A DNA stretch of 64,000 nt, taken from the NCBI GenBank assembly GCA_937959275.1, contig CALGLU010000026.1, positions 1-64,000 of the forward strand, written 5' to 3'. Positions 787 to 10,949 of the stretch are shown piece after piece. A model generated the notes under the pieces. That model was not told where the DNA came from and did not search any database. It saw only the letters and a list, made by a program, of their open reading frames with translations. The DNA comes from an uncultured Saprospiraceae bacterium. GTDB lineage: Bacteria; Bacteroidota; Bacteroidia; Chitinophagales; Saprospiraceae. Positions within the stretch are counted from its first letter, which is position 1. Each line of letters begins with the position of its first letter. Position numbers and translations under genes: made by a program.

Positions 787-1131
787 ATGGACCACTCAAA
801 AATTTGCACAATCATTAATCAAGTCTATTCAATTAATAGCAGTATTAAATTAAAGCTTGACAGTGATTCGTTAACAAGAAAATTCCAAAGGATTTATAGA
901 GAACTCGAAAATATGGGTTATACCATGCATGATCCACTTGGAGAAAATTATGATGTTGAAAGAGTCGACTGTGAAGCAACTATCAGTGGCAATTCTTCAA
1001 AGAATTTAAAAATCGTTGAGGTAATTAAACCAATAATCTACTTAACTTTATCGGAACGTAGAGAGATTTTACAAAGAGGAATTGTCATTATACAAGGTCG
1101 TGAAGATTCAGATAAAATTGACGAAGAATAA
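787..1131 (+). CDS. Minimal GrpE-like nucleotide exchange factor (divergent)
   Basis: This 114-aa protein is too divergent for a confident name, but its second half follows the GrpE head domain. The stretch ENMGYTMHDPLGENYDVER matches the GrpE pattern G-x-x-x-x-D-P-x-G-x-x-F-D. The end, IVEVIKPIIY...ILQRGIVIIQ, matches the GrpE ending V-x-E-V-x-x-x-G-Y-...-R-x-A-x-V-x-V. The long dimerising helix of normal GrpE (about 190 aa) is reduced to roughly 40 residues. It lies 12 nt before a divergent Hsp70 gene, the expected partner. Inferred role: driving ADP release from that Hsp70. Key basic residues of the canonical interface are not clearly kept. Confidence 0.55.
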   Translation: MDHSKICTIINQVYSINSSIKLKLDSDSLTRKFQRIYRELENMGYTMHDPLGENYDVERVDCEATISGNSSKNLKIVEVIKPIIYLTLSERREILQRGIVIIQGREDSDKIDEE

Positions 1132-1143
1132 ATTAGAACAATC

Positions 1144-3633
1144 ATGAGTAATACTATCAATTACGGAATAGATTTGGGTACAACTAATTCAGCAATAGCT
1201 GTTTATAACAATGGTGAGGTAGAGATATTTAGAAATCCTATAAATCTAAAGCAAACATTATCATCAGTTGTTGCTTTCAAAGGCGATCGGACGATCGTTG
1301 GAGATAAAGCAAAAGAGTTATTAGAAAAACTACCTGGTAAAGTATTTGGAGGATTTAAGCGAAAAATGGGGACTACTGAAACCTTTGACATTATAGGTAC
1401 AGCACGTGTGACAGATCCAATAGAACTCTCAAGCATGGTCCTTAAAGAGTTAAAAAACTTTATACATACTAAAGAGAACCCGAAACAAGTGGTCATTACC
1501 ATCCCCTCAGCCTTTGATACAATTCAATCGAATGCGACAAAACAAGCTGGACTTATGTCAGGCTTTGAAAATATTGTTTTGTTACAAGAACCAATAGCTG
1601 CTTCACTGGCTTTTGCCAATAATGCAGGTTTTTCTATAGAAGAAGGCAAATGGATCGTTTATGATTTCGGTGGTGGGACCTTTGATGTGGCCTTAACATC
1701 GTTAATAGATGGGGAGTTAAAAATTATTGATCACGAAGGGGATAACTTCTTAGGAGGTAACGATTTTGATTCACTTATTATAGATCAGTTTATTATACCT
1801 GAAATAAATAAAAAAGTAAATATTCCGAACTTAGAAGAGGAAATGAAACGATCTAGTGGGTCATATAATAAACTCTATACTAGATTAAAGTTTATTGCTG
1901 AAGAAGCCAAAATTCATCTCAGTACTGTTGAACTTGTAGAGATCGAATTTGATCTAGATAGTCCAACAGGAGAGACAATCGAAATAATCCTAGAGTTAAG
2001 TCAAAGTAGGTTTGAAGAAATCTGTATTCCCATTGTTGAGAAAACCATTAAACTTACCCAACAGGTTTTGGACAGGCAGAATATTCTTTCTTCTGATCTC
2101 CAATGCATATTACTAATTGGTGGATCGACCTACATGCCTTTAGTTCGCAGAAGTTTAGAGAAAAAATTTGGTGCAATAATAAATTATTCAATGGATCCAA
2201 CGGTAGCGATTGCTGTTGGCGCAGCATATTTTGCTGGCACCAGACCCTTGAAAAAATTTCATCAGCGTTATATTTCACAAGACGATTCGGAAATAGAGGT
2301 CAAATTAGCATATGAAAGAGTATCTACAAAAACCGAATGTCTTGTTATGAGTAAAGTTTCTGGAGATATTGATGGTTGTGAATATAGAGTTATCAGAACA
2401 GATAATGGTTTTGATACCGGCAGAATTAAAGTTCAACATGATAACCAGATAAGACTTACTCTTTTATCAGGTTCTTACAATGCTTTTGAGATCTTAGTTT
2501 TTGATGTTACTGGCACCTGTATCAAGAAACAAGAATTTGGTATAACTCACGGAAAATATAATGTAGACGGACAAACACTTCCAGATAATATCTGTATTGA
2601 GTTAGATGATATAGAACTAAATACAACATTCCTTGAGCCAATATTTACAAAAAACTCCTTGCTTCCTTTGAAAAAAACCATTATTAAACAAATATCAAAA
2701 ACCATTAAAAAGGATAGTGATGACGAATTGGTAATTAAACTTTTAGAAGGAGATATCGACACTATACCTGCTGCGAATAAATCAATCGGATTGATTAAAA
2801 TATCAGGTAAAAATATTGATAGGAGCCTAATTAAAGGAACCGATGTCGAAATTACATTTGAAATTACAGAGTCAAGAGATGTTATTGTGGAAGTCTTCGT
2901 GACACTGACAGATGAAGTCTATAAAGATAAATTTAGTCCGAATACTGCAAATGTCGATATACAGACCTTGATTGGAGAAGTGACCTCATTGAAAGCTCAT
3001 CTTGTACGAAAAATTGGAGAATATGAACGAGTGGAAAAGTATGAATCTGCAAGTATTGCCTATACGACTCGTGAGGAGATAAATAATATTTTATCATCTC
3101 TTGAAAATTTATCTGATGATGATACGACTGATCTTAAATATAAACTAGATATAAGAAAAAGAGCCGTCGCTAAACAAGTCTACCAACTAAATAACTCCTC
3201 TTATCTAGATCAAATAACACAAGATTATTTGGCCGCAAAGAATAAAGCCTTTAAATCCATAAAGAGAGAACTTGCCAATTTTAATGATAAGGAAGTCTAT
3301 GAAGGAATTATAAACAATGAACAATCGTTCTTAAAAGAAGGTGTCCCTTCTATTATAAAAATGAAAATTAACAATTTAGATTCATTATCTGACCGCATCA
3401 GTCAGAGAGATAATACGAAGGTCGATATAAAATCATTATTTTTAGAATTACGTCTATTTAAGTTTAAGGATCAGCAGAAAGCACAAGAACTCTTTGACAA
3501 AGGTAATGTCGCACTAAACGAAAGACGAGACTCAGAGTTGGTATTAATAGTCAATGAACTATTTAATATTTTAAATCAGGACGATGAAGAAATTCAGGAA
3601 TTTGTAAAAAACACCAAAACTGGATTAAAATAA
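1144..3633 (+). CDS. Divergent Hsp70-family ATPase (DnaK-like, long C-terminal region)
   Basis: This is an 829-aa cytosolic protein. Residues 1-375 form a complete Hsp70 nucleotide-binding domain: YGIDLGTTNS (7-16), VVITIPSAF (about 116), EPIAASLAF (about 149), YDFGGGTFD (about 173) and LLIGGSTYMP (about 322). The ATPase residues look intact. The usual interdomain linker VLLLDV is absent, and the substrate-binding region is unlike DnaK. A beta-rich middle is followed by about 200 helical, charged residues, making it roughly 190 aa longer than DnaK. It sits between a GrpE-like gene (12 nt) and a membrane protein gene (33 nt) with no J-domain gene nearby. It is probably a specialised chaperone or signalling ATPase, not the housekeeping DnaK. 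Confidence 0.8.
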   Translation: MSNTINYGIDLGTTNSAIAVYNNGEVEIFRNPINLKQTLSSVVAFKGDRTIVGDKAKELLEKLPGKVFGGFKRKMGTTETFDIIGTARVTDPIELSSMVLKELKNFIHTKENPKQVVITIPSAFDTIQSNATKQAGLMSGFENIVLLQEPIAASLAFANNAGFSIEEGKWIVYDFGGGTFDVALTSLIDGELKIIDHEGDNFLGGNDFDSLIIDQFIIPEINKKVNIPNLEEEMKRSSGSYNKLYTRLKFIAEEAKIHLSTVELVEIEFDLDSPTGETIEIILELSQSRFEEICIPIVEKTIKLTQQVLDRQNILSSDLQCILLIGGSTYMPLVRRSLEKKFGAIINYSMDPTVAIAVGAAYFAGTRPLKKFHQRYISQDDSEIEVKLAYERVSTKTECLVMSKVSGDIDGCEYRVIRTDNGFDTGRIKVQHDNQIRLTLLSGSYNAFEILVFDVTGTCIKKQEFGITHGKYNVDGQTLPDNICIELDDIELNTTFLEPIFTKNSLLPLKKTIIKQISKTIKKDSDDELVIKLLEGDIDTIPAANKSIGLIKISGKNIDRSLIKGTDVEITFEITESRDVIVEVFVTLTDEVYKDKFSPNTANVDIQTLIGEVTSLKAHLVRKIGEYERVEKYESASIAYTTREEINNILSSLENLSDDDTTDLKYKLDIRKRAVAKQVYQLNNSSYLDQITQDYLAAKNKAFKSIKRELANFNDKEVYEGIINNEQSFLKEGVPSIIKMKINNLDSLSDRISQRDNTKVDIKSLFLELRLFKFKDQQKAQELFDKGNVALNERRDSELVLIVNELFNILNQDDEEIQEFVKNTKTGLK

Positions 3634-3666
3634 TTAAAGCGTTCTCGTTATACTATTATCGGAAAT

Positions 3667-5460
3667 ATGTCTCATAAGAATCCTCTTAGAATATTTAATG
3701 CTTCTCAAATTGAAAGACTTAAAAGTGGTGAGCATAATTCTCTTAAAAAGGAAATACTTTTACAATTTCAATTCTATGATACAACGACTATATCGCTTAA
3801 TGGCCATGAGGTTGACAGAAATGAAGTCATAAATATTTTTGATGTATTAGAAGGTGGACTTGAAGAACACTTAGGTGTTCTAGACGATCTCGTCCTCAGT
3901 CGATTTTTTGACACAGAAAAACTTGTGGATCTTGTAGAATGGAATCCTGAAAAATTATCGTCATTACAAGATAATACAAGAACACAATTAGCAAACACAA
4001 TACGTAAACGACTGTATGAAGAAATTTTTTCAGATAGCAGTCAAGATAATTTTGAAAAAATAGTTGCTATAATTGATAATTTTAATCCCGAGCTCCAAGA
4101 TTCTATTTATAGCCAATGTCATAACCAGATTAGTTCAGAATTAGAAGAACATAAGCAAGAATTTAAAGAACCATTCATCATAGGTGAATACCATAAACAA
4201 TCAGTAAGGAAAATTCTTATTGTTGAAAAATATATTAACCTAAAGGTGTTCAATAAATTAAATTCTACGCGAGCTTACTTCGATAGTATTAAAGATAAAT
4301 ATAAAATATTTTGTAAGCGTATTGAAGATTATCGACAACATTATATTAATACGGGTATACCAGATCAAGAATATTTAATCATGCACGACGCTGCACTTAT
4401 ACTTTATACAATAGAACCAACAACAGAAAATGAAAAAATTGCTGAGGAAGTAAAAATATATTATAACATTCCTCTCCTTATATTGAAATGGTTGCTAGCC
4501 ATTTTAGGAGTACTCGTTATAATTTTAGGTCCTCCTTTAATTAAAACAACCTTCTTCTCTGAGACGGATAATAATAAGAAAAACGTTGTAATAAAATCCC
4601 AAGAAACTTACCCGGCCTCATCAACATTATACGATCTTTTGGGAGACAAAATACATTACATTAAGCCAGTTATTGATTCAATCATTCATCAGGTCAGTGA
4701 CGATACTTTTTATATTTCAACTGATCTTATTCCAATTGATTTCAATGTCTATAAACAACTGATTCCTGATTCAATTAAATCTCAATATAAGGGCAGTAGT
4801 AAAACATTCATTTTTAAATTCAATATAAGATATATTCCAGGTTCAACTATTTGTTATAAGGTCCTTATTTCGTTTAACAGTAATGCTAATGTTGATGATA
4901 TCAAAAAAATTGTTATTCCAAAAAGTCCAGCATTTACTGTAAGTGAGGCTAATCAAGGTATTAACTGGATTGGGCAACGGCATATATTTATTGATTCCCT
5001 TAACACCTTTGAATTAAGTTCTAGCTTTTCAGTACGCCGAAATAAAAAGGAGACGATATTCAATTATATCAAGGATTATAATGGGCTTACTCTAGATCTC
5101 AATTCTATTACGAATCCATATGTAAAACATCCTGGCTATTGGATCGCTAAAATGCCTAGTATAGCAAATGACTTTATCTATTCTCCGAACAAGACTGGTA
5201 CATATCAGGCAGCGCTATCGTATTATGAAATAATTGGTAATTATGTTTCTTCTGATTACATTAAATCAAAATTTAGCTGCCTAGAAATATCTCCTGTAGA
5301 TAGCATAGGGACATTTATAATCTACAATGAGAACGATATTTTAACAATTTTCATAGACACCAAAAAAGCAAATGTTAGAGGACTTCAGCTCGTCACCACT
5401 CAAGTCTCTAATGGCTTAACGACATATGAACGAGTCGTTCTATTTAGACAAGAAGAATAA
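3667..5460 (+). CDS. Single-span membrane protein of the Hsp70 operon, unknown function
   Basis: I recognise no family for this 597-aa protein. Residues 1-265 are soluble, helical and charged. One strong membrane segment covers about 268-292 (WLLAILGVLVIILGPPLI). Residues 300-597 look beta-rich and, with no signal peptide, are probably outside the inner membrane. There is no HPD motif, so it is not an obvious J-protein. It starts 33 nt after the Hsp70 gene on the same strand and is almost certainly co-transcribed. By position its cytosolic half could recruit the Hsp70 to the membrane (inference). Its stop lies 10 nt from that of the convergent dnaE. Confidence 0.6.
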   Translation: MSHKNPLRIFNASQIERLKSGEHNSLKKEILLQFQFYDTTTISLNGHEVDRNEVINIFDVLEGGLEEHLGVLDDLVLSRFFDTEKLVDLVEWNPEKLSSLQDNTRTQLANTIRKRLYEEIFSDSSQDNFEKIVAIIDNFNPELQDSIYSQCHNQISSELEEHKQEFKEPFIIGEYHKQSVRKILIVEKYINLKVFNKLNSTRAYFDSIKDKYKIFCKRIEDYRQHYINTGIPDQEYLIMHDAALILYTIEPTTENEKIAEEVKIYYNIPLLILKWLLAILGVLVIILGPPLIKTTFFSETDNNKKNVVIKSQETYPASSTLYDLLGDKIHYIKPVIDSIIHQVSDDTFYISTDLIPIDFNVYKQLIPDSIKSQYKGSSKTFIFKFNIRYIPGSTICYKVLISFNSNANVDDIKKIVIPKSPAFTVSEANQGINWIGQRHIFIDSLNTFELSSSFSVRRNKKETIFNYIKDYNGLTLDLNSITNPYVKHPGYWIAKMPSIANDFIYSPNKTGTYQAALSYYEIIGNYVSSDYIKSKFSCLEISPVDSIGTFIIYNENDILTIFIDTKKANVRGLQLVTTQVSNGLTTYERVVLFRQEE

Positions 5461-5470
5461 TTGTTCTACA

Positions 5471-8400
5471 TCAATACCGCTCATCCTTCACAAACGGCAG
5501 CTTCTCCATCCGCTGCACCTCCATACTCGGAAATCCAAAGTCATCCACAATCACTCCCTCTATCGCATAACAGCCACGCCCCCGAAACGGATATGCAGCC
5601 AGCGACGGCGGGAAATGTGTCGTATCAAAAAACTTCCCTTCCGTATCCAGCCAAGTCCCAAAACTCATGTGCTTTCGATTCACTGTCGTCACATGTTTTT
5701 GTGCAACATAATACCCCAACATATTGACCCGCTTGCCAATCGCCGGCTTCAACTCCCGCGCCACAATCTGCCCCCTAAACTTCGATGCCATTAAATCAAA
5801 TGGCGAACACAAGGGAAAACCCAACAACTCAATCTCATCAAACGCCTGCTCATGCTCCCCTTCCTCTAAACTCGGCAAACTAAAACTCTCACTCTCTAAC
5901 TCAAATAAGCCCTTCTCGCCGTGATGCCTCACCTGCGGATTGTGCACCGCATTCTTCTCCCACATCAACTCATATTTATTCAAGCCCGTAAATCGAAACG
6001 CCCCGATGCGAATCAAAATCTCCAACTGATCTTTGCGGATGTCAATGCGGCTAACAAAATCCTGCATACTTCTGTAATCGCCATGCATCTGTCGCTCATG
6101 CACAATCTGCTGCGCCAGCTTACGCTCCAAATCAGCAATATGGACCAAGCCAATATACACATCATCACCATCAATCGTCGTCAGGTGAGTGCTGTTATTG
6201 ATGCAGGGCGCTTCGATATTCGCCCCGCACATCCGCGCTTCGTGCACATACACTTCCGTCCGATAAAAACCACCAAAATTATTAATCACGGCCACCATAA
6301 ATTCTCTTGGGAAATAGGTCTTCAAATACAAACTCTGAAAGGACTCCACCGCAAAGCTCGCCGAGTGCGCCTTACAAAACGAGTAGCCACTAAAGCTTGC
6401 AATCTGCCGCCACACCTCCTGACTCAAGGCATCTGGATAGCCGCGCTCTTTACAATTTTTAAAGTATTTTTCTTGCAGCCGCTTAAACGTGTCCGAACTC
6501 TTTTTCTTACCCGTCATGATCCGCCGCAGCACGTCTGACTCATCCAGCCCAAGCCCCGAAAAATGATGGACGATCTTCATGACATCTTCCTGATACACCA
6601 TCACACCATAGGTCTCTCCCAGGTGCTCCTCAAAGACAGGATGGATATGATTAAAACTGTCTGGGTCATGTGAGCGCTTGATGTATTCGCGCATCATGCC
6701 AGACTTAGCCACGCCGGGACGGATGATCGAACTGGCTGCGACAAGGTGGATATAGTTGTCGCATTTCAACTTGCTCAGCAAGCCGCGCATCGCTGGAGAC
6801 TCGATGTAAAAGCAACCGATACACTGCCCAGATTTCAATTGGGCTTTTACGTTTTTATCTTCTTTGAGTTTAGGTACATCATGGATGTCGACAGCCATGC
6901 CTTTGTTTTGAGCGATCAGCTTGACGGCGTCTTTGATATGGCCGAGGCCTCGCTGACTCAGCACATCATACTTGTGAAAATTTAGATCTTCTGCGCCATA
7001 CATATCAAAGTGCGTGACCGGAAACCCTTTAGGCATCATCTGTAAAGCCGTGTGATAGTTGAGCGGCTGTTCGCTGATTAAAATGCCGCCCGCATGGATA
7101 GATAGGTAATTCGGAAAGCCCTCGATCATGCCGCCATATTTAAAAATATGCTTGGCGAAGGGATGATGCTTTTCATCGTTATGAGGTTCGCTGACAATGA
7201 GATCGATGTCTGCCTTGGGCAGGCCGACGACCTTACCTAATTCGCGAATGATCGACTTGCCTTTGAAGGTGTTGTATGTTGCCAATAAGGCTGTGTGCTC
7301 CGCGCCATAGCGTTTGAAAATATAGTCAGTGACGTCATCACGCTCATCCCAAGAAAAATCGATATCAAAGTCTGGTGGCGAGCTACGGTGCGGATTAATA
7401 AAGCGCTCGAAGTATAGGTCGAGTTCAAGCGGATCGACGTCAGTGATATAGAGATTGAAGGCCACAATAGAATTGGCGCCACTGCCTCGGCCGACGTGGT
7501 GATAACCTGCTGAGTGTGCATAGCGGATGATGTCCCAGGTGATGAGGAAGTAGGGCGCGAAACCGAGTTCGTGGATGACTTTGAGTTCGCTACGTGTGCG
7601 GGTCATGGCTTTTCGGTTCTGCTTGCCGTAGCGGCGGATGCAGCCATTCATGGAGAGCTTGCGGAGGAGTTCGATGTCTCCTGCTGGGCTACCGGTAAAT
7701 GTTTTGCGATTGTTATCGGATTTGTCATTCATCTCGATCGAGCAGCTGTCGAGCAGGCGTTTGGTATTGTCGATGATACGTGGGTATTGCTCAAAGATTT
7801 GTTCGAGTTGTGTCGGTGTATAGATCATCTCATTGGCGCGGGCATGGTGCTGGCGGTCAAGCTTGCCGATGATAAGATTGAGATCGATGCAGCGCAGGAG
7901 TTTATGGATCTTGAAGCCATCGGTATTGAGGAAGGTGATGGGGCTAAAGATGACGAGCTTGTCTTGGTGGTCTTTGAGGTAGGAAGAGTAGAGGCGGTTG
8001 ACTTCATTGGGAGCGACGCCGATGTATTCGTTGTCGCGGAGTTGATGGATGCCTTTGTGAGCGGGGAGCTTGCGGTAGATGATGTAGGCGTGTTCGAGTG
8101 CGGGAGCTTGGGCGGGGAGAGGTTGGTTGTTGAGTGAGCTGAGGGTGAGGAGTTGGTTGAGTTCGCGCCAGCCTTCTTTGTTTTTGGCAATGCCTAGGTA
8201 GAGGAGTGTTGAATGTTGAGTGTTGAGTGTTGAATTATTAGTGTATGTCTTTGGTTCGGTGTTATTGTCGTCGGCTTGTGTGGTTTTGAATGTTTGGCGG
8301 AATTCGATGCCGAGCACGGGTTTGATGTTGTTGGCTTGACAGGCTTTGATGAATTGGTAGGCGCAGGAGGTGTTGTTGATGTCGGTGAGGGCGAGGGTTT

Positions 8401-8491
8401 TGATGCCGTGTTGGGCGGCGTGTTGGGCGAGCTGTTCGGGGGAGAGGGTTCCGTATTTTAGGCTGTAGTATGTGTGGTTGTTCAAATACAT
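5471..8491 (-). CDS. dnaE2: Short DnaE-type DNA polymerase III alpha subunit (DnaE2-like)
   Basis: This 1006-aa C-family DNA polymerase has an N-terminal PHP domain (about 1-250; LNNHTYYSLKYGTLS, where the usual HxH is NxH). The palm core contains GRGSGANSIVAF and the triple-aspartate PDFDIDF at about 373-379. Helix-hairpin-helix and OB-fold regions follow. At 1006 aa it is shorter than replicative DnaE (about 1160) and the right size for error-prone DnaE2. Upstream on the same strand is dinB, the usual damage-tolerance partner in Bacteroidota. Residues about 67-96 are a low-complexity insertion partly encoded by a short repeat. An SOS-type role is likely, but no LexA gene is in view. Confidence 0.85.
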   Translation of the reverse strand: MYLNNHTYYSLKYGTLSPEQLAQHAAQHGIKTLALTDINNTSCAYQFIKACQANNIKPVLGIEFRQTFKTTQADDNNTEPKTYTNNSTLNTQHSTLLYLGIAKNKEGWRELNQLLTLSSLNNQPLPAQAPALEHAYIIYRKLPAHKGIHQLRDNEYIGVAPNEVNRLYSSYLKDHQDKLVIFSPITFLNTDGFKIHKLLRCIDLNLIIGKLDRQHHARANEMIYTPTQLEQIFEQYPRIIDNTKRLLDSCSIEMNDKSDNNRKTFTGSPAGDIELLRKLSMNGCIRRYGKQNRKAMTRTRSELKVIHELGFAPYFLITWDIIRYAHSAGYHHVGRGSGANSIVAFNLYITDVDPLELDLYFERFINPHRSSPPDFDIDFSWDERDDVTDYIFKRYGAEHTALLATYNTFKGKSIIRELGKVVGLPKADIDLIVSEPHNDEKHHPFAKHIFKYGGMIEGFPNYLSIHAGGILISEQPLNYHTALQMMPKGFPVTHFDMYGAEDLNFHKYDVLSQRGLGHIKDAVKLIAQNKGMAVDIHDVPKLKEDKNVKAQLKSGQCIGCFYIESPAMRGLLSKLKCDNYIHLVAASSIIRPGVAKSGMMREYIKRSHDPDSFNHIHPVFEEHLGETYGVMVYQEDVMKIVHHFSGLGLDESDVLRRIMTGKKKSSDTFKRLQEKYFKNCKERGYPDALSQEVWRQIASFSGYSFCKAHSASFAVESFQSLYLKTYFPREFMVAVINNFGGFYRTEVYVHEARMCGANIEAPCINNSTHLTTIDGDDVYIGLVHIADLERKLAQQIVHERQMHGDYRSMQDFVSRIDIRKDQLEILIRIGAFRFTGLNKYELMWEKNAVHNPQVRHHGEKGLFELESESFSLPSLEEGEHEQAFDEIELLGFPLCSPFDLMASKFRGQIVARELKPAIGKRVNMLGYYVAQKHVTTVNRKHMSFGTWLDTEGKFFDTTHFPPSLAAYPFRGRGCYAIEGVIVDDFGFPSMEVQRMEKLPFVKDERY
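8206..8234. repeat. In-frame GTGTTGAGT-type repeat inside dnaE
   Basis: The stretch reads as successive GTGTTGA(A/G)T units and encodes STLNTQHSTL (residues 87-96 of DnaE). The same unit recurs in non-coding DNA at 8506-8536, 8974-9007, 37498-37520 and about 53166-53200. In the protein it falls in a loop between GIEFRQ and LLYLGIAKN of the PHP domain, where an insertion should be tolerated. Confidence 0.75.
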
Positions 8492-8505
8492 TTTATGTAT
8501 TTGAA

Positions 8506-8536
8506 GTGTTAGGTGTTGGGTGTTGAGTGTTGGGTG
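8506..8536. repeat. GTGTTGGGT/GTGTTGAGT tandem repeat, left of four-helix gene
   Basis: Several units of GTGTTG(G/A)GT lie between dnaE (start 8491) and the four-helix-bundle gene. It is the inverted counterpart of the repeat at 8974-9007 on the other side of that gene. Confidence 0.7.
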
Positions 8537-8571
8537 ATCGCCACCCTACCCAGCTCCTCCTTTCCAGATAA

Positions 8572-8931
8572 TTATCGTTCATTTCGAAGATTGCTTTGTG
8601 CGGTTTTGGCGATTGACGTGAGGATATTTATGATGGCATTAATTTCAGTTTTCAATGTCTCGTATTTGTAATCAACTAAATGACTTGCTTCCAGTAAGCG
8701 AAGCCAATACAAGGTTTCTCTCGCTTCTTTTGAAGAAATAGCCATTTTTGCAATGAAATCTCTTTTGCTTTGTGCCGCCTGTGCTTCCTTCACATTCGCG
8801 CCTATGCTTGTTCCGCAACGCAAGATTTGTTTGGATAACACAAATTCATTCTTTTTAATAAGCTCCTTATACAGCTCAATGATGAGCAAAGAAAATTCAA
8901 AGCTCTTATCAACAATTACTTTCTTTTTCAT
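8572..8931 (-). CDS. Four-helix-bundle protein (23S rRNA intervening-sequence / S23 family)
   Basis: This 119-aa all-helical protein has the pattern of the S23/TIGR02436 family: FEFSLLIIELYKEL, then SKQILRCGTSIGANVKEAQAA, SKRDFIAKMAISSKEARETLYWL and a final helix. Family members assemble as pentamers of four-helix bundles. Some are encoded inside 23S rRNA insertions, many are free-standing, and their function is unclear. The accessory protein Avd of diversity-generating retroelements shares the fold, but no reverse transcriptase is present here. The gene sits between dinB and dnaE on the same strand, with inverted copies of the short CAACACTC-type repeat on either side, so it may have been inserted into an older dinB-dnaE operon. 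Confidence 0.88.
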   Translation of the reverse strand: MKKKVIVDKSFEFSLLIIELYKELIKKNEFVLSKQILRCGTSIGANVKEAQAAQSKRDFIAKMAISSKEARETLYWLRLLEASHLVDYKYETLKTEINAIINILTSIAKTAQSNLRNER

Positions 8932-8973
8932 AAAATTTTATTTTCTACCAAGGAAGGAGCAAAGCGACTTCCT

Positions 8974-9007
8974 TTCACTCAAAACTCAACACCCAAAACT
9001 CAACACT
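8974..9007. repeat. ACTCAAAACTCAACACCC repeat, right of four-helix gene
   Basis: Units of CTCAAAA and CTCAACAC are repeated between the four-helix-bundle gene and the end of dinB. This is the inverted orientation of the repeat at 8506-8536. Confidence 0.7.
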
Positions 9008-9032
9008 TTGCAGCAGCTATATAGCTGCTGCA
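9005..9032. repeat. 28-bp perfect palindrome over the dinB stop codon
   Basis: The palindrome has arms TTTGCAGCAGCTAT and ATAGCTGCTGCAAA with no mismatch. It encodes the last DinB residues (FAAAI) and contains the TAG stop near its centre. As RNA it can form a strong GC-rich stem of about 12 bp. No T-tract follows on the minus strand, so it is not a standard terminator. Confidence 0.8.
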
Positions 9033-10159
9033 AACCCAATCGCATCCTCCCCAAATCTCTTCCGAATCTTATCTCGCTGCTCCAGCAATTTGATCGCTTT
9101 TAGGCTATCGTCAAATAAACTAATCTGGTAATGCCCTGGGACCAGCCCGCTAAACTTTACACCGATCAGTCGGATGAGTTGGCGGCGATCATAGAGGCTG
9201 TCAAACAATTCGTGTGTCAGTCGAATCAATCCTGTATCGTTAGCCGTGTAAGCTATGCGTCGTTGCTTCGTGTAGGTGTTGAAGTCTGCGTAGCGGATTT
9301 TGACTGTGACGCAAGATGTCAACTTCAAGGTACTGCGAAGCTCGTAGGCAAGTTTGTCAACCATGCCCATCAATTTATGTCTGATCATCTGCAGGTCGAG
9401 CGTGTCTTCCATGAAGGTGCGCTCTTTGGAGATGGATTTTTTTTCGCTGTAAGGGATGACGGGTGTTCTGTCAATGGCATTGGATTGCTCCCATAATTTT
9501 TTGCCGTGTTTCCCAAATTCTCGTTCGAGTAAGCGGATCGGGATTTGGCTGAGGGTTTGGATCTGCCGTACGCCCATGAAGCTGAGCTTTTTGTGCATCT
9601 CTTTGCCGACGCCAGGGATTTTGCGAACAGGCAAAGGAGAAAGAAATGCCTTTTCCGTGCCGAAGGGCACCTCTTTCTCACCATTGGGTTTGCCTTCGCC
9701 AGTGCCCACTTTTGAGACTAGCTTATTGACGGATAAACCAAATGAGATTGGCAATCCGGATTCTTTAATAATGCGATGGCGTAATTCTTTGGACCATGTA
9801 TAACAACCAAAGTGGCGATCCATACCCGTCAGGTCCAGGTAGAACTCATCGATGGATGCTTTCTCCAACACTGGTGCATCTTCTGCAATGATCTCTGTGA
9901 CTAGCTTGGAGTAATAAGAGTAGCTATCGCCATCACCTTTAAGGACAAGCGCATCGGGGCAGAGCCGCAGAGCCATCTTCATTGGCATGGCAGAGTGGAC
10001 ACCAAAACGGCGCGCCTCATAGCTACAAGACGCCACGACACCTCGCCGACTCGTCCCGCCAATGATCAGAGGTTTGCCCAAAAACGAAGAATTTTTGAGG
10101 CATTCTACCGACACAAAGAAGGAGTCGAGGTCAAGATGTAGGACGGCGCGGTCAAACAT
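9017..10159 (-). CDS. dinB: Y-family DNA polymerase IV
   Basis: The protein is 380 aa from the ATG at 10159, which gives the family N-terminus MFDRAVLHLDLDSFFVSVE. A 21-residue upstream extension in the same frame does not look like protein. Catalytic acidic residues are visible: D10 and D12 in LDLDSF, and D104/E105 in SIDEFYLDL. GRRGVVASCSYEAR is the fingers segment, and IPGVGKEMHKKL is the helix-hairpin-helix. The C-terminal little-finger domain ends with SLFDD followed by a basic helix. It performs translesion synthesis and probably works with the DnaE2-like polymerase downstream. A 24-bp dyad lies 41 bp before the start. Confidence 0.9.
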   Translation of the reverse strand: MFDRAVLHLDLDSFFVSVECLKNSSFLGKPLIIGGTSRRGVVASCSYEARRFGVHSAMPMKMALRLCPDALVLKGDGDSYSYYSKLVTEIIAEDAPVLEKASIDEFYLDLTGMDRHFGCYTWSKELRHRIIKESGLPISFGLSVNKLVSKVGTGEGKPNGEKEVPFGTEKAFLSPLPVRKIPGVGKEMHKKLSFMGVRQIQTLSQIPIRLLEREFGKHGKKLWEQSNAIDRTPVIPYSEKKSISKERTFMEDTLDLQMIRHKLMGMVDKLAYELRSTLKLTSCVTVKIRYADFNTYTKQRRIAYTANDTGLIRLTHELFDSLYDRRQLIRLIGVKFSGLVPGHYQISLFDDSLKAIKLLEQRDKIRKRFGEDAIGFAAAI

Positions 10160-10199
10160 GAGTTTAGTTACTGTTTTATTATGTCGAAATAACCGTCTT

Positions 10200-10223
10200 T
10201 TTGTTGACGGAAAAGCCAACAAA
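10200..10223. promoter_or_regulatory. Dyad TTTGTTG-N10-CAACAAA upstream of dinB
   Basis: Perfect 7-bp arms with a 10-bp spacer lie 41 bp upstream of the chosen dinB start. The size and place suit a dimeric repressor such as LexA or an S24-family regulator, but the sequence is not a known SOS box that I can name. Confidence 0.35.
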
Positions 10224-10328
10224 TCTAATAGAAATATTTGGATGATGAAATAGGTAGTTGTATTTTTAACAATCTGAACGAAATAAATCGTTGTATCGTT
10301 ACTAGACTAACTTAGTTCAAATGAATCT

Positions 10329-10565
10329 ATGAAAATCGTTAATATCCACGAAGCAAAAACTCACCTGTCTGCACTTCTTAAATTAATTCAAGACGGACAA
10401 GAAGTTATCATTGCTAAAAAAGGTAAACCTATCGCTAGGTTGACTGAATATAATCAAAAGAAAACCCCTAGAAAAGGTGGACAACTGAACGGCAAAATCA
10501 AAGTGAGCGATTCATTTGATGAGTGGCCAGAGGATATTGCAAAATCTCTAGGAATCGTTGATTAA
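10329..10565 (+). CDS. Phd/YefM-family antitoxin
   Basis: This 78-aa protein has the classic antitoxin start MKIVNIHEAKTHLSALL followed by VIIAKKGKPIARL, the Phd/YefM DNA-binding fold, and a short acidic C-terminus (DSFDEWPEDIAKSLGI) that would wrap the toxin. The stop is immediately followed by the start of a PIN-domain toxin gene. Expected role: neutralise the toxin and repress its own promoter. The antitoxin-first order is typical. Confidence 0.9.
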   Translation: MKIVNIHEAKTHLSALLKLIQDGQEVIIAKKGKPIARLTEYNQKKTPRKGGQLNGKIKVSDSFDEWPEDIAKSLGIVD

Positions 10566-10949
10566 TTGAAGTACCTATTAGATACCCATATCATCATATG
10601 GTGGCTTGATCAAGAAGGAAAAACATTCCTTAAAGAAGAAGCAAAACGAATTATCGAATCCGTAGAAAACTCTATTTTCATCAGTTATGTGAGCATACTT
10701 GAAATTTCTATTAAAGTATCAATAGGGAAACTTGAAATAGATACGAATTACATAGATTTTTTAAAAGAAGACGCAATAGAGATTCTTCCGATTACAATTG
10801 CTGAAATCCAAATGCTAACAGATTTAGAATTACATCATAGAGATCCTTTTGACAGATTACTTATATGTCAAGCTATTCAAAATGGAATGACATTAATCTC
10901 AAGAGATCAGGAATTTAAAAAGTATGATGTGAAGATTATTGAGGGATAA
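10566..10949 (+). CDS. PIN-domain toxin (VapC-like ribonuclease)
   Basis: This 127-aa PIN domain starts at TTG, directly abutting the antitoxin stop. Catalytic acidic residues are in place: LLDTHIIIWWL (D6), the E of SILEISIKV, DPFDRLLICQA (two aspartates) and the terminal LISRDQEFKKYDV. Family members are Mg-dependent RNases that cut tRNA or rRNA. The WWL after DTHI is the subgroup usually paired with Phd/YefM antitoxins, as here. Zero-gap spacing and the rare TTG start suggest translation depends on the antitoxin reading frame. It appears intact. Confidence 0.9.
   Translation: MKYLLDTHIIIWWLDQEGKTFLKEEAKRIIESVENSIFISYVSILEISIKVSIGKLEIDTNYIDFLKEDAIEILPITIAEIQMLTDLELHHRDPFDRLLICQAIQNGMTLISRDQEFKKYDVKIIEG

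Follow-up and report, generated by a model that had tools for sequence, protein, structure and literature searches.

Genome context of the operon

How is an Hsp70 controlled when it is encoded between a small GrpE-like protein and a membrane protein, with no J-protein beside it? The HPD motif of J-proteins and the Hsp70 arginine that it addresses are the accepted core of J-protein control over Hsp70. The genes that raise this question are located at the left end of a contig of 64,889 bases, and the whole stretch analysed here (64,000 nt) is referred to as the window. The features at its left end are as follows.

280–456, + strand: remnant of a broken ATPase_2/AAA-type gene (GRRRKGKT), 59 codons, by translation and Pfam
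787–1131, + strand: P0001 gene, GrpE-like head-only protein, 114 aa
1144–3633, + strand: P0002 gene, divergent Hsp70, 829 aa (PF00012, 7.5e-67)
3667–5460, + strand: P0003 gene, membrane protein, 597 aa

The reading frames of the three co-directional genes are open on the + strand and are separated by 12 nt (P0001/P0002) and 33 nt (P0002/P0003), in agreement with the tight operon described in the initial annotation. The remnant at 280–456, near the contig edge and 5′ of the operon, matches Pfam ATPase_2 below the cut-off (E 0.0014), and is what had been called a dead ATPase gene. The G+C content is 32.2% in the operon, 44.7% between 5461 and 12000, and 39.0% beyond 12 kb. Reading of the sequence suggests that the mostly convergent genes on the 3′ side, at 5471–10949, encode a DNA polymerase of the III alpha type, a four-helix-bundle protein, a polymerase of the DinB type and a toxin–antitoxin pair resembling Phd/PIN; their G+C is higher than that of the operon. 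A transposase-like fragment, also named by reading, lies beyond the window at the right end of this contig (L146, 4627–4890). Housekeeping dnaK and grpE-dnaJ genes are present elsewhere in the genome. Neither P0001 nor P0003 reaches the cut-off of any Pfam or NCBIfam family, and a canonical J-domain was not found in the first 12 kb of the window.

P0001 resembles the head of GrpE

The AlphaFold (AF2) model of P0001, based on an alignment of 75 sequences, has a pLDDT of 89.7 and a pTM of 0.80, and is divided into two parts.

793–912, + strand: residues 3–42, two helices matching part of the GrpE bundle (model, alignment)
919–1095, + strand: residues 45–103, part corresponding to the beta-wing (model)

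In a Foldseek search with this model, rows 1–12 were all GrpE or GrpEL1, with a best E of 1.5e-3 and none reaching 0.001. By VIA, the model matched four GrpE entries with Z scores of 10.0, 9.8, 9.8 and 9.3 (the best with rmsd 3.5 and 97 aligned) and GrpEL1 with 8.1 and 8.0; the first unrelated fold appeared at Z 5.9, tied with another GrpE. The model maps onto residues 87–197 of E. coli GrpE only: the 114-aa protein has the head and is missing the long, paired N-terminal helix of GrpE. The model and the fold search thus bear out both the GrpE head pattern and the stripping of the exchange factor to its head that had been read from the sequence. By its predicted structure, P0001 is a GrpE-like head, and it is not classed as a full GrpE.

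Related systems were placed in three groups. Group A comprises Hsp70s close to that of the window, found by a scan with the Hsp70 C-terminus; group B is more distant (L037–L042 and the plasmid locus L208), and group C is a small proteobacterial set (L043, L209–L211 and L213–L215). Profile comparisons of the GrpE-like proteins, made on trimmed alignments, linked group A to true GrpE at 11.6%, to group B at 84% and to group C at 44%, while groups B and C were linked to true GrpE at 58% and 70%; each value was above all 100 column shuffles, the profile–profile check proposed for P0001 included. An untrimmed run, with slightly different group sets, gave 7.4% for A to true GrpE, 96% for A to B and 92.6% for B to GrpE. 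The profile probabilities are modest, and it is the structural match of the model that carries the GrpE assignment. A sequence search of P0001 against solved structures returned nothing, and BLAST found no similarity between P0001 and the GrpE of its own genome.

The Hsp70 keeps its catalytic residues and lacks J-docking features

Residues 8–365 of P0002 match the Hsp70 family, and the protein can be divided into the following parts.

1144–2238, + strand: nucleotide-binding domain (NBD), catalytic residues intact
1576–1578, + strand: codon of V145 (GTT), which aligns with DnaK R167 (30 DnaKs compared)
2239–2583, + strand: about 110 extra residues separating the NBD from the SBD-beta-like part; the right border is approximate
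2584–2979, + strand: SBD-beta-like region, a weak match (second domain, 4.1 bits only)
2980–3630, + strand: C-terminal region, presumably lid-like by its position (translation)

The SBD-beta alignment, over residues 481–612, is weak. For comparison, 100 system Hsp70s (85 from group A, seven from L037–L043 and eight from plasmids) were aligned with 30 DnaKs of the same phylum. Ninety-seven of the 100 rows are distinct, the identical pairs being L032/L099, L033/L123 and L118/L120. The truncated Hsp70s of L104 and L113 were left out, as was L212 from the plasmid rows, where the Hsp70 is annotated in two pieces.

Seven catalytic positions (D8, T11, K70, E171, D194, T199 and D201) are identical in all 130 sequences, confirming that the ATPase site is intact. 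The arginine at the R167 position is present in 30/30 DnaKs and in none of the 100 system Hsp70s, the replacements in group A being V (47), L (14), Y (10), F (6), I (3), T (2), Q (2) and A (1). Two further positions, which we take to be J-domain contacts in DnaK, have changed as well: N170 is N in all 30 DnaKs and Q in 99 of the 100 system proteins, and T173 is T in all 30 DnaKs and I or V in all 100. The VLLLDV-type linker motif, already reported missing from P0002, occurs in 30/30 DnaKs and 0/100 system rows. The segment separating the NBD from the SBD-beta motif has a median length of 149 residues in the 75 group A proteins that match the pattern, compared with 40 residues in DnaKs (the 10 of 30 where the pattern matched). 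D481 was dropped as an informative position, since it is N in the DnaKs used. Another Hsp70 paralog of the same genome retains R at the R167 position, showing that divergence alone does not remove it.

In DnaK, the aspartate of the HPD motif acts on R167 and on the linker aspartate D393, and R167H suppresses the DnaJ mutation D35N, according to the available text of PMC7289447. New here, as seen in the alignment, is that the system Hsp70s keep the catalytic residues and are without both the J-docking R167 and the VLLLDV linker.

In a quick tree of the NBD, the window Hsp70 groups with Saprospiraceae sequences (0.975) and the Hsp70 of a Pseudomonas plasmid falls inside group A. The deep supports of this tree became unreliable after re-rooting and were not used.

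The membrane partner has a conserved N-terminal domain and a variable tail

P0003 is divided by one predicted membrane span starting from about residue 270, as had been proposed.

3667–3951, + strand: residues 1–95, conserved N-terminal domain, helices and a beta-hairpin at 41–50 (HMM family, model)
3952–4470, + strand: residues 96–268, helical middle part (model)
4474–4530, + strand: single predicted membrane span, about residues 270–288 (hydropathy)
4537–5457, + strand: variable tail, probably extracytoplasmic, no Pfam match

The model of residues 1–268 is helical (mean pLDDT 91.4), and fold searches with it retrieved no J-domain, though residues 1–100 were barely covered. The best VIA match, Z 8.4 on residues 143–250, has weak meaning for a helical model and was set aside. 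If the folds are equivalent, the hairpin at 41–50 would be where a J-domain carries its HPD motif, and HPD is absent from this stretch of P0003. Among 106 third proteins (102 distinct), HPD was found in three of the first-100-residue stretches, at residues 70, 70 and 91 and never in the loop; it is absent from the counterparts in group B (0/7) and group C (0/5). Direct comparison of the third domain with a J-domain profile gave 1.1%, and 3/100 shuffles were equally high. In the comparison of groups B and C with J-domains, no shuffle of 100 was as high, the similarity covering about 30 columns at helices I–II, and the same was found for the third domain of group A against groups B and C (0/100). 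Since direct similarity is at chance level and the bridge runs through groups B and C, descent of the P0003 N-terminal domain from a J-domain is possible on the profile evidence.

Searches with P0003 recovered the protein itself and a single weak match among 395 phylum genomes, and nothing in the species genomes, which is explained by the conservation of its N-terminus only. The same division is seen in paralogs: in 42 pairs encoded within one locus, the first 95 aa are 34–93% identical, and the tails are either missing in one partner or 20–41% identical. Tails of third proteins range from 0 to 555 residues. In the 42 scanned of the 47 tails of at least 100 residues, Pfam matched FGE-sulfatase once, TonB_C once and gave two weak matches; a weak secretion-tail match is in a different tail from that with TonB_C. 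The tail of P0003 shows short similarity to L046/L047 only.

One span is predicted in 89 of the 106 third proteins, none in 11 and two in six. Among single-span proteins (n = 67, related sequences), the N side of the span is richer in K/R in 38, poorer in 16 and equal in 13, weakly favouring a topology with the N-terminal domain inside across the family. The flanks of the P0003 span (two K/R before, four after) do not favour this orientation.

Conservation and distribution of the gene set

Hsp70 relatives at E 1e-60 or better were found in 14 of the 395 phylum genomes, and a search with P0001 at E 0.01 gave matches in 12. Seven of these 12, the genome of the window included, have the P0001 match directly 5′ of a close Hsp70. 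The matches in G040, G107, G160, G241 and G350 (E 2.5e-4 to 1.5e-3) are unrelated genes with no adjacent Hsp70 and were rejected. Two of the seven genomes with the Hsp70 pair (G202, G277) have no match to the third domain at E 1e-4; the third domain occurs without the Hsp70 in G002, G021 and G343.

The C-terminus scan of species genomes gave 236 relatives; the best 80, together with the window and six loci from whole genomes, make up 87 loci, at least two of them doubled. A GrpE-like gene lies no more than 300 nt upstream of the Hsp70 gene in 80 of the 87 (median gap 11 nt). In the other seven it is farther off (L059, L077, L084) or was undetected (L044, L085, L104, L113). By HMM, a gene for the P0003 N-terminal domain is present in 75 of the 87 loci, in up to five copies that are sometimes in tandem. 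It is on the same strand and downstream in 19 of these loci, and convergent or upstream in 56. In the remaining 12, some of them at contig ends, it was undetected; L034 and L035 have third-protein-like neighbours by eye that are HMM-negative and were not counted. The synteny expected of the trio is therefore upheld for the GrpE-like gene and for the N-terminal domain of the third protein, and needs qualifying in two respects: this domain is the only part of the third protein that is kept, and its gene is often convergent or upstream.

A canonical J-domain occurs at 1 of 94 loci (L036), so the earlier statement that no standard J-domain is nearby holds for the first 12 kb of the window and for relatives with this one exception. 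The DnaJ gene of L036 (11321–12514) has a CbpM-like gene (named by reading) alongside.

Genes of the third-protein type were also seen apart from the Hsp70. L138 (G002) encodes such an N-terminal domain at 7318–8652, near Vsr-like and helicase-like genes (names by reading), with no Hsp70 or GrpE-like gene in 15 kb. Diverged versions without the Hsp70 lie beside a DprA-like gene at L139 (7122–7970) and L140 (7152–8000), and in L035 the Hsp70 pair is near a similar gene, as if the pair had been lost or gained there.

Distant relatives, plasmids and mobile elements

In distant relatives, the GrpE-like head either terminates a membrane coil protein or is encoded by a small gene of its own, and a protein with an NPFxxLGL-like start and an AAA protein are also found. 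A protein kinase domain fused to an AAA ATPase lies beside the group B Hsp70 in L037 (531–2318) and L038 (9419–11176); L042 (2371–4155) appears by reading to encode a similar kinase–AAA fusion. Genes of the TerB family are present in some loci (L033, by Pfam; L208, by annotation).

A conjugative Pseudomonas plasmid (L207, 8651–11502) carries a group A-like pair, a 117-aa GrpE-like protein and an Hsp70 38.5% identical to P0002, preceded by a gene for a 706-aa protein. In plasmids from Shewanella and Aeromonas (L211, L212), a group C Hsp70 cluster is found behind annotated tnsA, tnsD and tnsE of a Tn7-like element. No relative was detected in phage records or viral contigs.

Proposed function

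With moderate confidence, we favour the reading that the operon encodes a dedicated Hsp70 machine, with P0001 as exchange factor and P0003 as a membrane-bound, HPD-less J substitute, insulated from DnaK-DnaJ-GrpE. P0001 would serve P0002 as a head-only exchange factor of the GrpE type, its fold being that of the model and its activity presumed. The sequence of P0002 keeps the catalytic residues and is without the arginine and linker used by canonical HPD J-domains. The N-terminal domain of P0003 may replace a J-protein in docking the Hsp70, through a rewired contact that does not depend on HPD, and the variable outer part of P0003 may sense or bind a target; engagement of this part would probably bring ATP-driven Hsp70 action to the inner membrane. 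The initial annotation had already suggested that the membrane protein replaces the J-protein. The conserved N-terminal domain, its weak bridge to J-domains by way of related systems only, and the loss of R167 and linker strengthen that proposal, which is still unproven.

The data suggest a separate chaperone circuit carried by many Bacteroidota and some plasmids. More tentatively, it would represent an Hsp70 lineage of its own, marked by joint change on the two sides of the J-protein/Hsp70 contact: an Hsp70 that lost R167, N170, T173 and the linker, and a J-protein turned into an HPD-less membrane receptor with swappable outer domains, together with a head-only GrpE, forming an orthogonal signalling or defence circuit spread partly by plasmids and transposons. 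A lineage that has the ATPase residues and neither side of the J contact would imply a second mode of coupling Hsp70 to a partner, supply an orthogonal chaperone pair from nature, and allow the contacts required between J-protein and Hsp70 to be tested directly. Should the outer domains be sensors, Hsp70 action would be linked to events at the cell surface or to conflict with mobile elements.

What the machine is for is a matter of conjecture, the stress, defence or surface-sensing role first proposed being a guess. Defence against phages or plasmids, with the variable part sensing invasion and the Hsp70 as switch or assembly motor, is the leading guess because of the company kept by plasmid relatives. 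Related plasmid Hsp70 clusters adjoin BREX pglZ/brxL and, in another case, zorA; one is beside a UvrD-helicase/ATP-dependent endonuclease pair of Gabija-like appearance and a TaqI-like protein, another beside a restriction endonuclease and a Fic gene, and two are behind Tn7-type tns genes. Transfer would fit both the patchy distribution and the G+C of the operon, which at 32.2% is low compared with 39.0% beyond 12 kb. One tail has an FGE-sulfatase domain, and FGS domains are named among the effectors in the accessible part of PMC7159879.

However, the plasmid cases, except L207, belong to the more distant groups, relatives are absent from the phage records and viral contigs, and PADLOC gave no strong match for the three proteins. 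P0001 and P0002 have no PADLOC match at the level of a clear match, those of P0003 are weak only (Cas9, 0.0057; HamC, 0.019), and the trio does not qualify as a known anti-phage system. PADLOC matches among neighbours of the Bacteroidota loci (129 of 228 scanned) are scattered and are counted in families: mad2 (4), mad3 (4), AriA (2) and single matches to AbiLi, type IIG, RT_UG29, RtcR-CARF and PDC-S68 among the 25 listed of 118 families. Among the 25 listed of 62 families, control neighbours (129 of 143) matched UvrD-type helicase models for the most part, and mad3 once. A defence role is plausible but unproven, and as an account of the whole unit it is possible, with considerable doubt.

Somewhat less likely is a role in quality control of the envelope or surface, with the Hsp70 acting on membrane or exported proteins that the outer part of P0003 selects. 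The membrane span predicted for the third protein and its variable outer part agree with this, as do the TonB_C domain in one tail, the weak secretion-tail match in another and the neighbours of L031 and L032, which we take from reading to be gliding-type genes; the rarity of the system (7/395 genomes) and its plasmid and Tn7-type contexts are unlike a housekeeping function. Less probable still is that P0003 is a client of the Hsp70, which would then use the housekeeping DnaJ or none: the third domain has no direct J similarity and a canonical DnaJ adjoins the L036 locus, but the N-terminal domain is conserved across partners with unlike tails, and R167 and the linker are gone from all 100 Hsp70 rows.

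Comparison with known systems

The favoured reading, a dedicated Hsp70 machine with a membrane-bound J substitute, has a partial parallel in Pam16-type proteins, which are HPD-less, J-like proteins at a membrane and linked to Hsp70. Pam16 pairs with a true J-protein, whereas the window locus encodes none.

Among the listed matches in the open-licence literature, none describes the present unit, and other papers may contain a description. The closest found is that of the GAP1-N2 GTPase-centred conflict systems, with HSP70, GrpE and FNIII-DnaJ (Kaur et al. 2020, PMC7159879). As far as the available text of that paper goes, these systems share with the unit an accessory Hsp70 that has a dedicated exchange factor and is encoded at a predicted conflict locus; they are described mainly from Actinobacteria and Firmicutes and use a DnaJ domain, whereas the unit is mostly from Bacteroidota, is without DnaJ and has a membrane partner. 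In Myxococcus, MxDnaK2 and MXAN_6672 likewise form a two-gene operon of a second Hsp70 and its own exchange factor; they differ from the unit in the 34.43% similarity of MXAN_6672 to E. coli GrpE and in the almost identical linkers of the two Myxococcus DnaKs, both given in the accessible sections of PMC11019930. The CnuD Hsp70-like proteins of type III CoCoNuTs are also Hsp70 homologues in an accessory locus. In the part of PMC11090510 available, CnuD has degenerate Walker A-like motifs and McrBC partners, in contrast to the intact ATPase residues and GrpE-like partner of the unit.

With DnaK-DnaJ-GrpE itself, the unit shares the Hsp70 ATPase residues and, by its model, the GrpE head fold. 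It differs in being without an HPD J-domain (at the window locus), the VLLLDV linker and the long GrpE helix, and in having R167, N170 and T173 replaced and extra residues inserted before the SBD.
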